A stretch of 64,000 bases of DNA from Glycomyces luteolus (GTDB lineage Bacteria > Actinomycetota > Actinomycetes > Mycobacteriales > Micromonosporaceae): assembly GCF_027622875.1 (NCBI RefSeq), contig NZ_JAPZVP010000005.1:151349-215348 (forward strand), given 5' to 3'. This document shows, piece by piece, positions 12,877-41,782 of the stretch (position 1 is the stretch's first letter; each line of letters opens with the position of its first letter). The notes under the pieces are model-generated. The model saw nothing but the letters and a program-made list of their open reading frames with translations. It was not told where the DNA came from and did not search any database. Both the position numbers and the translations under genes were made by a program.

Positions 12877-13464
12877 TCAGTTCTGGAGGGCCACGACCAC
12901 CATCGCGACCGCGACCAGGGTGTCGAGGACGACGCAGAACTCGGCGAGCGAGCGGGAGACGACCCGTTCGGTGCGGTGGTGCCACACGTCCCAGGCGGCA
13001 TGGGCGAGCAGGCCGGCCGCCACGAGGTAGAGGCCGAGGTCGCCGCCGACGAGCAGGACCGCTACCGCGACCGCCCCGACGACGACCATGGCGAGGCTCT
13101 GGAGCGGCAGGCCTTCGGCGGGCCGGGCGGCGCCCCGGAACAGGCCGTAGGCGGCGAGCGGCACGGCGAGTCCGATCATGATCCAGATGCCGAGTTCGGT
13201 GTCGTAGGCCGTGAACCCGGTCGCGCCGATGACCGCGAAGGACACGAAGAACACCGGCCAGGCCGCGCCGCGCCGCTGGAAGGCCGCCGCACCGAGGTAG
13301 ACGAACCCGGAGGCCGTGAGGACCGGCGCGAGATCCGATCCGGAGGTCGCGCCCCAAGCGGTGAAGGCGGCCATGGCGATCCCGGCGACGGTGGGCCAGC
13401 GCCGCAGGAGGACGCGGCGCGGGTCGCCCGAACGAGGCAGGGTTTCGGGTGTCGTGGCGGTCAT
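12877..13464 (-). CDS. multi-spanning membrane protein of unknown function behind a CsoR-like operator
   Basis: A 195-residue protein with about six hydrophobic segments (for example around VAGIAMAAFTAWGA, IGATGFTAYDTELGIWIMIGL and SLAMVVVGAVAVAVLLVGG). I do not recognise a family. The start at 13464 is chosen because AAGGAG lies seven bases upstream; the frame is open further upstream without support. Sixteen bases ahead of the start is ATACCTAGAGGGGGTAT, which resembles operators of CsoR-family regulators (copper, persulfide or formaldehyde sensors). A second such site at 39585 fronts a His-rich membrane protein. A role in metal or sulfur stress is therefore possible but unproven. Confidence 0.75.
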   Translation of the reverse strand: MTATTPETLPRSGDPRRVLLRRWPTVAGIAMAAFTAWGATSGSDLAPVLTASGFVYLGAAAFQRRGAAWPVFFVSFAVIGATGFTAYDTELGIWIMIGLAVPLAAYGLFRGAARPAEGLPLQSLAMVVVGAVAVAVLLVGGDLGLYLVAAGLLAHAAWDVWHHRTERVVSRSLAEFCVVLDTLVAVAMVVVALQN

Positions 13465-13479
13465 GACGATGCTCCTTGA

Positions 13480-13496
13480 ATACCTAGAGGGGGTAT
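13480..13496. promoter_or_regulatory. CsoR-like operator candidate
   Basis: ATACCTAGAGGGGGTAT has ATACC/GGTAT arms around a G-rich centre, in the same 17-bp format as CsoR/CstR sites such as the Bacillus copper operator. It lies 16 bases upstream of the membrane protein start. Confidence 0.6.
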
Positions 13497-38374: not shown

Positions 38375-38983
38375 ATGGGCACCGGTGGGAGTTTGCGAGA
38401 AGTGTCACGTCGGGCCGTGCAGTCGAGGATCGCGCGGGCCGCCGAAGAGCTGTTCGTGGCAAAGGGTTTCGAGGAGACGACGGTCGATGAGATCGCCGCC
38501 GCCGTCGGTATGTCCCAGCGCAGTTTCTTCCGCTACTTCGCATCGAAGGACGAGGTGGTGCTCGACAGCCTCGAGCGCCTGGGCGAGGAGCTCACGGCCC
38601 GGCTGGAGGCGCGTCCGGCGGATGAGCCGGAGTGGGATTCGCTGCGGCACTCGTTCGCGTCCGTAGTGGACCGCCTGTCCGACCCCGAGGCGCGCGATCA
38701 CGATCGGGCGATCCACGGGATCGTGAACGCGAGCCCGCGGCTGCTCGCGGCCTACCTGGGGCGGCTCGACCGGCTGCAGGGTTCGCTCTCGGAGCTGCTG
38801 CTCGATCGGGCCGCCCGGAACCCGGGCGGCGAGACGGATCCGGTGGTGCTGCGCGCGCTCGTGGGCGGGGCGTTCGCGTGCCTGCAGGCGGCGATGCACC
38901 ATTGCGGCGTCGAGCCCGAGGTGTTCGGGCCGTGCCTGGACCGGACGATGGCGGCGCTGCGTCCCGCGGGCGCCTCGGCCTAA
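38375..38983 (+). CDS. TetR family regulator, probable efflux repressor
   Basis: A 202-residue TetR protein with the HTH RAAEELFVAKGFEETTVDEIAAAVGMSQRSFFRYFASKDEV (core: IAAAVGMSQRSFFRYF). It is divergent from the DHA2 transporter, a classic arrangement where the regulator represses the pump until a substrate binds. The first ATG (38375) has no clear Shine-Dalgarno; GTG at 38402, ten bases after GGGAG, is an alternative start that still leaves the HTH intact. Its stop codon overlaps the convergent DUF4396 gene by four bases. Confidence 0.87.
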   Translation: MGTGGSLREVSRRAVQSRIARAAEELFVAKGFEETTVDEIAAAVGMSQRSFFRYFASKDEVVLDSLERLGEELTARLEARPADEPEWDSLRHSFASVVDRLSDPEARDHDRAIHGIVNASPRLLAAYLGRLDRLQGSLSELLLDRAARNPGGETDPVVLRALVGGAFACLQAAMHHCGVEPEVFGPCLDRTMAALRPAGASA

Positions 38984-39531
38984 TGGTGATGCTGGTGGAC
39001 GACCGCGTGGCCCTTGCCGCGTGAGATCAGCCAGCGGTTGATCGGAACGGTGACCACGAACGCGATCGCGAGCGCGGCCGCCAGCGTGAGCCAGAACCGG
39101 GGGTCGGCCAGGCCCATCTCCATCGCGCCGGGGATGGCGAGGATGAACGCGTTGTCGACGATCTCCATGACCGCGATCGAGATGGTGTCGGCGGCGAGCG
39201 CGACCTTGAACGCTTCCTTGAAGGACAGTCCGGCGCGCAGGACGCCGCGCATGGTCAGCGCGTAGCCGAAGAGGAAGGCCAGCGCGATCGCGAGCGCGAT
39301 GGTGGCCGCGCCGTGCCAGCCGAGGGCGGTGCCGATGACGACGCCGAGCACTTCGCCGATGGCGCAGCCGGTGAGGCAGTGGAGGGTGGCCGAGGCGGCC
39401 ATGCCCCAGCTCGCGGTCTTCGCCTGGGCGCCATGGGAGGCGTGGTCCTCGTGACCGGTATGCCCGTGTCCCGCGTGGTCCTGGGCGTCGTGCTCGTGGT
39501 GCTGGTGGTGCTCATGGGCGGAGTGGTCCAC
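38980..39531 (-). CDS. DUF4396 membrane protein with His-rich N-terminus
   Basis: A 183-residue protein. The first 35 residues are extremely rich in His and acidic residues (HEHHQHHEHD, AGHGHTGHEDHASHG), and the C-terminus ends HQHHH, both suited to bind metal ions. The body is the DUF4396 module with four hydrophobic segments and a conserved LHCLTGCAIGE motif, whose Cys pair may also bind metal. Function of DUF4396 is not known. It starts at GTG 39531 with GGAG upstream. About 55 bases further upstream lies ATACCCCCATAGGGTAT, a CsoR-like operator, which together with the His/Cys content suggests a role in copper or other soft-metal handling. Confidence 0.82.
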   Translation of the reverse strand: MDHSAHEHHQHHEHDAQDHAGHGHTGHEDHASHGAQAKTASWGMAASATLHCLTGCAIGEVLGVVIGTALGWHGAATIALAIALAFLFGYALTMRGVLRAGLSFKEAFKVALAADTISIAVMEIVDNAFILAIPGAMEMGLADPRFWLTLAAALAIAFVVTVPINRWLISRGKGHAVVHQHHH

Positions 39532-39584
39532 AGCGTGCTCCTCGCTAATCGGCGGCCCGGGGTGGCCGCGACCGGGAAGATGTT

Positions 39585-39601
39585 ATACCCCCATAGGGTA
39601 T
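39585..39601. promoter_or_regulatory. CsoR-like operator between the DUF4396 and ClC genes
   Basis: ATACCCCCATAGGGTAT has ATACCC/GGGTAT arms around five bases, in the 17-bp format of CsoR-family sites. It resembles the site at 13480-13496. No CsoR-type gene is in this window. Confidence 0.72.
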
Positions 39602-39702
39602 TTTGCAAGCGCGGCCCGGAGGCGGAGAAATGCAATGTGCTGCGGCCCTGTGCGCCGCTGTAGGAAGATCCACAGTGCAGCATAGGGCGATGTGGGGGCA
39701 CC

Positions 39703-41007
39703 ATGGTCGAGACTTCCGGAGGCCGGGGCGCTGGGCTCGGCGGCCGGTACGCTCGCGTGCTCGCCCTCGCGGGCCTCATCGGCATCCCGGTCTCGGTGGC
39801 GGCCTTCGCGTTCCTCGCGCTCCTGCACTGGCTCACCGACTTCGTCTGGGAGGACCTGCCCGAGCACTGGGGCCTCGAACCGGTGCCGTGGTGGTGGCCG
39901 GCCCCCTGGCTCCTCGTCGGCGGCGCGATCGTCGCGTTCGCGATCACCCGCCTGCCAGGGCACGGCGGGCACGTCCCGATCGAGGGCCTCTCGCCCGACC
40001 CCGCGCCGCCCTCGCACCTGCCCGGAGTCCTGCTCGCGGCGCTCGGCGGCCTGCCGCTCGGCGTCGTGCTCGGCCCCGAAGCGCCGCTCATGGCCGTGGG
40101 CGCGGCCTTCGCCACGATCCTTACGAGCCGATGGGTCGTGCGCGGCGGCCCCGAGAACGCCCTCATCAGCACGTCCGGTTCCGCGGCGGCCGTCGCCGTC
40201 ATCTTTGGCAGCCCGCTCGTGGCGGCCGTGTTCATCCTCGAATCCGCCGGCCGCGCCGGGATCCGGCCGATCCGGGTCGTGCTGCCGTGTCTGTTCTCGG
40301 CCGGGATCGGCGCGCTCGTGTTCACCGGACTCGGCGAATGGACGGGCCTGCGGGTGACCTCGCTGCAGCTCCCCGGACTCGACGTCCCCGACCGGCCCGA
40401 CCTCGCGGATCTGCTGTGGACGATCCCGCTGGCGGTGCTCATCGCCGTGGGCGTCCGCCAGGTCCACCACCTCGGACGGCGCCTCGTCCCGCACACCGAC
40501 CGGCGGCCCGCGCTCATGGCGATGGCCGCCGTCGCGGTCACCGCCGCCGCCGCCGCGGCCTACTCGCTGCTGACCGGCCGCTCCCCCGTCGAGGTGCTGC
40601 TGTCCGGACAGGAGGCGCTCGGTGTCTTCACGGGGACGGGCGACGTGCCCGGCGTCTGGGCACTGGTGGGGCTGCTGGTGTTCAAGGGCCTGGCGTACGC
40701 GGTGTCGCTCGCGACGCTGCGCGGCGGCCCGATCTTCCCGGCCCTGTTCCTCGGCGCGGCCGCCGGTGCGCTCCTCAGCGGGCTCCCCGGGTTCGGCATC
40801 GCCCCGGCGATGGCCGCGGGCATGGCTGCCGCCACCGCGGCGATCCTGCCGCTGCCGGTCTCGTCGGCCGTCCTAGTCACGCTGCTGCTCGGGTCGGGGG
40901 CGAGCGGGATGACCCCGATCGTGCTCATCGCCGTCGTCGTCGCGTTCGTGACCGAGCAGCTCATCGACCGCACCGGCAACCGCGAGCCCGTGCCCGAGGC
41001 GACGTAG
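39703..41007 (+). CDS. ClC family chloride channel/transporter
   Basis: A 434-residue ClC-fold protein with about 10-12 membrane spans. The ClC signature is seen as GHGGHVPIEG (selectivity-filter region), GVVLGPEAPLMAVGAAF (the GxEGP-like motif, here GPEAP) and RGGPIFPALFLGAAAGALL (the GxFxP motif, here GPIFPAL). The proton-gluconate Glu appears conserved as GPEAP, consistent with an H+/Cl- antiporter, but this needs structural alignment. It is followed by a two-span K+ channel at 9 bp, so the two are likely co-transcribed, and it faces the DUF4396 gene across the CsoR-like operator. Confidence 0.88.
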   Translation: MVETSGGRGAGLGGRYARVLALAGLIGIPVSVAAFAFLALLHWLTDFVWEDLPEHWGLEPVPWWWPAPWLLVGGAIVAFAITRLPGHGGHVPIEGLSPDPAPPSHLPGVLLAALGGLPLGVVLGPEAPLMAVGAAFATILTSRWVVRGGPENALISTSGSAAAVAVIFGSPLVAAVFILESAGRAGIRPIRVVLPCLFSAGIGALVFTGLGEWTGLRVTSLQLPGLDVPDRPDLADLLWTIPLAVLIAVGVRQVHHLGRRLVPHTDRRPALMAMAAVAVTAAAAAAYSLLTGRSPVEVLLSGQEALGVFTGTGDVPGVWALVGLLVFKGLAYAVSLATLRGGPIFPALFLGAAAGALLSGLPGFGIAPAMAAGMAAATAAILPLPVSSAVLVTLLLGSGASGMTPIVLIAVVVAFVTEQLIDRTGNREPVPEAT

Positions 41008-41016
41008 GGGGTGGGC

Positions 41017-41538
41017 ATGCAGGACAAGGGGAACGAGCGTTCGCAATCGTACCGGTTGCGCTGGCTGCTCGCGGGACTCGCGCTCATCGTCCTCTACTTC
41101 GTCGTGCCGATCCGCAGCGAGCCCGATCCCGTCGTCCTGGTCCTGCGCTGGTGCGGCACCGCCGTGCTGCTCGCGGGAGTCGCGATCGTCATCCGCAGGC
41201 AGGCGGTGCGGCAGCTCCGCGAACCCGACGCGCCGCTCGGGGCCCTGATCGTGGGCATCCTCGCTGGGGTGCTGCTGTTCGCGCTCGTCGACTACGGGGT
41301 GGCCGTGTACCGGCCCGACCAGTTCGCCGGCCTGCACACCCGCGTGGACGCCCTCTACTTCGCGCTGAGCACACTGAGCACGGTCGGGTTCGGCGACGTC
41401 ACGGCACAGGGCCAGTTCGCCCGGGTCCTGGTGTGCGTGCAGATGGCGTTCAACGTCACGGCGATCGCGGGCTCGGCCTCGCTCATCGCCCGCAAGCTCG
41501 CCGAACGCGCCCGTACCCGCGACCGCCGCGCCCTCTGA
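41017..41538 (+). CDS. two-span potassium channel-like protein
   Basis: A 173-residue protein with four hydrophobic segments: two near the N-terminus (about 17-60), then a pore module of two spans around the filter TLSTVGFGDVTA (about 119-130). TVGFGD matches the K+ filter TVGYGD with Phe for Tyr, a common variant. The start at ATG 41017 has AGGGGG five bases upstream. It lies nine bases after the ClC gene, so the pair may balance Cl- and K+ movement across the membrane. Confidence 0.88.
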   Translation: MQDKGNERSQSYRLRWLLAGLALIVLYFVVPIRSEPDPVVLVLRWCGTAVLLAGVAIVIRRQAVRQLREPDAPLGALIVGILAGVLLFALVDYGVAVYRPDQFAGLHTRVDALYFALSTLSTVGFGDVTAQGQFARVLVCVQMAFNVTAIAGSASLIARKLAERARTRDRRAL

Positions 41539-41596
41539 CGGGGAGAGGACCCGGCACGGACCGCTCAGGCGGGAGCGGGAAGAAGTGGAGGCCCGC

Positions 41597-41782
41597 ATGT
41601 TCTTGCGCAAGCGGTCGAACATCCAGATCGGACACCTGACCGGCACCAGCCCCGCCTTCGGATTCCTCTGGGTCGGAGAAGAACGGCGCTACCGGCTCAC
41701 CACCTTCGTGATCCACCGCCCCGAAACGGGCAGGAAGCTCGTCGAACTGCACTGCGACACGTGCGGCGCCTCGGCGCCGTGA
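41597..41782 (+). CDS. 61-residue protein with C-terminal Cys pair
   Basis: A short basic protein (MFLRKRSNIQIGHLTGTSPA...) ending in LHCDTCGASAP, a Cys-x2-Cys pair that could bind metal or a disulfide partner. I cannot name the family. The ATG at 41597 has GGAGG five bases upstream, better than the GTG four codons earlier. It is 58 bp behind the K+ channel on the same strand and may be the last gene of the ClC/K+ channel operon. Confidence 0.55.
   Translation: MFLRKRSNIQIGHLTGTSPAFGFLWVGEERRYRLTTFVIHRPETGRKLVELHCDTCGASAP

Follow-up and report, generated by a model that had tools for sequence, protein, structure and literature searches.

The palindrome at 39585–39601 of the window (the whole 64-kb stretch of DNA that was analysed) raises two questions: which regulator it serves, and which of the two divergent membrane operons beside it is controlled. 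An earlier note on this DNA had called the site CsoR-like and had seen in it, together with a second site at 13480, a possible CsoR-type regulon joining metal handling and ion channels. The palindrome and the gene layout were found as described, with a DUF4396 gene on one side and genes for a ClC protein, a K+ channel and a small Cys-pair protein opposite. Judged by its sequence and conservation, the palindrome is very probably an operator for the copper sensor CsoR, controlling the DUF4396 gene. The features on this side of the gap are as follows.

38980–39531, minus strand: DUF4396 membrane protein of 183 aa, the probable regulated gene (PF14342, E 1.2e-44)
39582–39587, minus strand: −10-like TATAAC in the DUF4396 direction, overlapping the operator, predicted from sequence
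39585–39601, no strand: probable CsoR type-2 operator ATACCCCCATAGGGTAT, a TAC-N9-GTA inverted repeat (pattern matches, conserved upstream of DUF4396)
39603–39608, minus strand: −35-like TTGCAA with a short spacer of 15 bp, predicted from sequence

The operator consensus of Streptomyces lividans CsoR is ATATACCCCTNAGGGGTATAT, in which TAC-N9-GTA is essential, according to the operator passages of PMC3902906. The same inverted repeat, together with G-tracts, is present in TACCCCCATAGGGTA at 39586–39600, so the site fits the type-2 operator described there and the CsoR-like label was justified. ATACC-N7-GGTAT occurred exactly twice in the window, at 13480 and 39585. In the shuffled window, the mean number of matches was 0.12 with one mismatch tolerated, and no shuffle reached two.

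Read towards DUF4396, the operator continues from its 3' arm into TATAAC, and TTGCAA stands just before it. Hence, the operator probably fills the core promoter of the DUF4396 gene. TTGCAA was preserved in two Glycomyces loci (L028 and L031) and in part in others of the genus. Downstream, the convergent DUF4396 and TetR genes share four bases at their stop codons (38980–38983), and TetR and MFS neighbours of DUF4396 were common to two other Glycomyces (L040, L041).

Conservation of the site in orthologous gaps had been set beforehand as the test that could refute the assignment. The box was retained. Of 30 loci from relatives, 26 had it in the 500 nt before DUF4396 (up to one mismatch), and the 86.9 kb of these loci contained a single further site; the 30 are those listed from 35 genomes with a match among 101, and include the window's own locus. 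In named genomes, 64 of 79 DUF4396 loci carried the box (49 exactly), compared with 11 of 1,405 control windows of the same loci. These loci are the best 80 of 583 relatives and are biased to close ones; one locus (L100) was left out because the regular expression missed its core motif. A-rich, TATA-like bases were favoured after the box in the 64 loci. The operator is thus conserved in orthologues and lies in the putative promoter region of its target.

Fifteen of the 79 named loci had no site within one mismatch. Four of them (L048, L078, L087, L113) are part of or adjoin copper clusters, or carry boxes at a greater distance upstream, one (L070) has a symmetric GTACCC form in place of the box, and three (L060, L067, L117) showed weak two-mismatch matches only. 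No box was found upstream of DUF4396 in seven (L041, L054, L062, L069, L071, L091, L093). One Glycomyces genome (L010) has DUF4396 without the site, and L041 is apparently the same contig. DUF4396 was absent from 14 of 22 Glycomyces genomes.

In an even sample of the phylum, 32 of 296 genomes had a DUF4396 match. The exact box was present in 14 of the 23 further loci scanned, partial or weak matches (L201–L205) being left out; the other nine (L179, L185–L188, L190, L193, L195, L200) had no box within 700 nt. In L179, a box lies 1,262 nt upstream. L179, L185, L190, L193 and L195 adjoin a DUF305 gene; by eye, an HMA-like gene was also noted in L193 and a P-type ATPase-like fragment upstream in L187. 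L186 and L200, which have no CsoR box, represent a divergent DUF4396 subfamily whose proteins are extended at the N-terminus.

Plasmid matches were read in 23 of 27 cases (H12, H13, H14 and H17 were left out). An exact box preceded DUF4396 in 12 of 17 actinobacterial plasmid records. A Kineococcus plasmid had two symmetric GTACCC boxes before a csoR-copZ-copA-DUF4396 cluster, the Embleya and Nonomuraea plasmids had two-mismatch matches only, one further DUF4396 gene was truncated and one stood at the start of its record. Upstream of DUF4396, the box was found in none of the five haloarchaeal plasmid loci. Since the same switch precedes DUF4396 genes in many related bacteria, the membership of the family in copper defence is well supported by context.

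Copper genes also occurred beside DUF4396. Within flanking sequence of at most 8 kb, a minority of the 80 named loci had them: CopA in 7, CopZ in 9, CsoR in 6 and multicopper oxidase in 3. The gene order was csoR-copZ-metal-binding-copA-DUF4396 in L078, copZ-copA-DUF4396 in L113, and copZ (HMA)-DUF4396-copA-MerR regulator in Ensifer. Three of the five haloarchaeal plasmid loci lie near genes for copper ATPase, HMA, plastocyanin, multicopper oxidase or four-helix copper-binding proteins; no copper genes were annotated near DUF4396 in the other two (Halorussus and Halalkalicoccus). Several Streptomyces plasmids pair DUF4396 with DUF6153, DUF305 or a four-helix copper-binding protein, and several others had no annotated copper genes nearby. 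No widely shared family was seen among the 27 downstream neighbours on the same strand that were scanned. The commonest upstream neighbour was endonuclease IV (nfo; 20 of 74 loci in L040–L119, mostly Streptomyces), which has no evident copper link.

The protein matched PF14342 along the whole model (positions 1–141 of 141) at 152.5 bits, with a curated cut-off of 27, and is a member of the family. Its His-rich ends and CxxxC motif, named in the earlier note, were present: 13 histidines in residues 1–41, 5 in the last 18, and C52-x3-C56. The predicted model has four long helices (42–70, 75–99, 104–132 and 144–170; mean pLDDT 82.5). The loop joining helices 2 and 3 and the C-terminus carry basic residues; the positive-inside rule would therefore put both ends of the protein in the cytoplasm. 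Invariant in 28 aligned sequences were H51, C52, C56, D115, M122, E123, D126, N127, N165, H175, H179 and H182, among others. All five haloarchaeal sequences and L186 preserve HC-x2-GC; in L200 the motif reads HC-x2-GD, with aspartate in place of the second cysteine.

Structure comparisons were uninformative as to function. Foldseek with the model gave E-values over 1, and solved structures searched by sequence gave no relevant match. VIA-align gave Z scores of 8.6 for an Mtr methyltransferase subunit, 7.4 for dynamin and about 5 for Rnf/Nqr, all in the chance range for helical bundles. MerT/MerC-type metal-transfer proteins are small helical membrane proteins whose first helix carries a Cys pair. 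DUF4396 is likewise small and helical with a first-helix Cys pair, a likeness of architecture that we offer as an analogy and not as homology. The context differs, being copper-exporter operons for DUF4396 and mercury for MerT/MerC, and a scan of 148 genomes from the class gave nothing above the cut-off of the MerC model. The Csp/four-helix copper-binding, DUF305 and DUF6153 proteins are encoded near DUF4396 on plasmids of Streptomyces and haloarchaea. They are different proteins, whereas DUF4396 is a membrane protein with a family of its own.

The papers searched gave no function for DUF4396 and no mention of PF14342. In passages of PMC7760498, DUF4396 appears in the flanks of a metal-resistance island of Acidihalobacter, along with other proteins and mobile elements; apart from this, the family goes unmentioned in what was found. 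It is not named in the CsoR regulon passages of PMC6414726, PMC4938975 and PMC3902906.

Motif and context together suggest a Cu(I)-handling role at the membrane. A further, tentative proposal is that DUF4396 may represent a widespread, newly recognised class of membrane Cu(I) transporter or relay. It would use an HC-x3-C motif in its first helix and His-rich cytoplasmic ends, work beside CopZ/CopA and be placed under lineage-specific copper regulators: CsoR in Actinomycetota, a MerR type in Ensifer and possibly an AsnC type in haloarchaea. It is somewhat unlikely that DUF4396 is copper-regulated without handling copper and instead repairs or protects a copper-damaged membrane target. Such a role would suit a motif that lies within a helix, an N-terminal His-rich part that is variable and short in some homologues, haloarchaeal proteins without the C-terminal HAVVHxxH, and the lack of a fold match that yields a function. 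It fits poorly with the retention of HC-x2-GC in both bacterial and archaeal proteins and with operon partners that handle copper directly.

The second question concerns the operon opposite, whose features are given below.

39660–39680, plus strand: conserved element GTAGGAAGATCCACAGTGCAG, likely part of a separate ClC promoter or leader
39703–41007, plus strand: ClC family protein (PF00654), judged not to be a CsoR target (profile match, orthologue contrast)
41011–41538, plus strand: two-helix K+ channel with a TVGFGD filter (Ion_trans_2, PF07885), a neighbour
41585–41782, plus strand: 65-aa protein with one C-terminal CxxC pair and no family match

All five Glycomyces with this arrangement have the operator in the gap between the two operons, 101 bp ahead of ClC. 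The operator might then serve both divergent operons, with copper also controlling the ClC/K+ channel, e.g. for charge balance in metal export. We consider this improbable. Thirteen close ClC orthologues were compared in Glycomyces: those adjacent to DUF4396 carried the box in 5 of 5 cases (4 exact, 1 with one mismatch), whereas those without DUF4396 carried it in 0 of 8, even with two mismatches allowed. Where DUF4396 is missing, the box was thus not conserved in front of ClC. A fourteenth homologue, remote at 31% identity, was also boxless, and the ClC-Kch pair stood next to DUF4396 in 1 of the 80 named loci.

Moreover, the GTAGGAAGATCCACAGTGCAG element was found in the five Glycomyces genomes with DUF4396 and in two without it, and in a weaker form in two more. 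Because of this conserved upstream element, the ClC/K+ channel operon probably has its own promoter and would not be a CsoR target; a −10-like sequence was assigned on the DUF4396 side of the operator only. The Glycomyces contrast and the separate element led us to reject ion channels as CsoR targets, and this part of the proposed regulon was dropped: the box tracks DUF4396, not ClC. A Salinigranum plasmid, from a haloarchaeon, also has a K+ channel gene directly after DUF4396 (L156, 4725–6600), which would suit a link to the channel.

The genome (5.74 Mb, 49 contigs) was scanned for the pattern that the earlier note had proposed to search for, with the reversed pattern as control. ATACC-N7-GGTAT gave nine sites and the control none. 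With two mismatches, there were 37 places and 9 in the control. One-mismatch near-sites were found at C23:31351 and C34:269266. Across 22 genomes of the genus (its own included), each had 2–13 sites, compared with 0–2 for the control. Apart from the one at 39585, the sites and the genes behind them are the following.

Contig C25: one site before csoR-copZ
Contig C5: two sites before a 333-aa His-rich protein of metal-binding type and the CopA ATPase
Contig C3: one site before a His-rich small membrane protein, a multicopper oxidase and an MFS protein
Contig C6: three sites before a YHS protein
Window, 13480–13496, no strand: second probable CsoR-type operator, ATACCCCCTCTAGGTAT on the minus strand (pattern match, orthologue conservation)
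Window, 12877–13464, minus strand: predicted membrane protein of 195 aa, encoded downstream of the second operator, with a sub-threshold DUF6010 match only

The box at 39585 is thus also found before csoR and copA of the same genome, as expected of a CsoR type-2 operator, and before the multicopper oxidase operon. Together with 13480, it does outline a CsoR-type regulon. The 13480 box is one position off the symmetric form. The difference is itself conserved, ATACCCCC-N3-AGGTAT being found in 15 of 15 close orthologues, which bears out this site as an operator of the same regulon; a box of this type was found in none of five remote homologues of the 195-aa protein. On C6 (L008, 4194–5169), the three sites are flanked on one side by the YHS protein and on the other by an MFS-type reading frame with an apparent truncation or frameshift close to its start. 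The His-rich small protein on C3 (L006, 5063–5488) has sub-threshold DUF2946/DUF6153 matches and its own CsoR site, and precedes the multicopper oxidase.

Operators of CsoR-family members resemble one another, and the regulator was assigned by sequence alone. The site could in principle be used by a persulfide sensor (CstR), a nickel or formaldehyde member of the CsoR family, or an unrelated factor. This is very improbable. The genome has a single CsoR-family gene (PF02583), with the same box upstream and copZ after it, and the genes of the regulon are copper genes. The best solved relative of its product is S. lividans CsoR (4adz, E 1.4e-32). In the alignment with 4adz, the Cys-His-Cys copper ligands and the DNA-contact residues, RLRR (RLxR) and a Gln, were retained, placing it with copper CsoR when compared with CstR, RcnR and FrmR. 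A sulfide signal is therefore unlikely, as the sole CsoR-family protein retains the copper ligands; sulfide and other CsoR-family sensors were rejected on this basis.

The characterised regulon of S. lividans (operators of csoR, copZA1 and copZA2, in passages of PMC3902906) agrees in operator type, in csoR and copA as targets, and in having the closest CsoR. DUF4396 lies outside the three operators characterised in those passages; a longer predicted list (Dwarakanath 2012) might mention it. Chance was rejected as the origin of the palindrome, with a probability close to nil: the pattern is short and with two mismatches the control has matches too, but the shuffles, the exact genome counts and the conservation across relatives, named loci and the phylum sample argue against it.

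Taken as a whole, we regard it as highly probable that the palindrome is the CsoR operator of DUF4396, released by copper, and that the ClC/K+ operon stands outside, with DUF4396 most likely a Cu(I)-handling membrane protein; binding, induction, topology and metal binding are predicted parts of this explanation. At low copper, CsoR would sit over the core promoter and keep the DUF4396 gene off. Once Cu(I) is bound by CsoR, the gene would be released, and csoR-copZ, copA, the multicopper oxidase operon and the membrane protein gene starting at 13464 would be released with it. The product would be a four-helix inner-membrane protein with probably cytoplasmic His-rich ends and the conserved HC-x3-C in helix 1, most likely binding or moving Cu(I) at the membrane beside CopZ/CopA.

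This kind of operator was already known. Here, a signal recurring across the phylum ties the uncharacterised DUF4396 family to copper, and the operons around the gene in archaea and in a further bacterial phylum point the same way. The 195-aa protein (12877–13464) would be a second conserved protein of no known family added to the CsoR regulon. For DUF4396, the result is a testable hypothesis: it would be a copper-induced, CsoR-repressed, Cu(I)-binding membrane protein.
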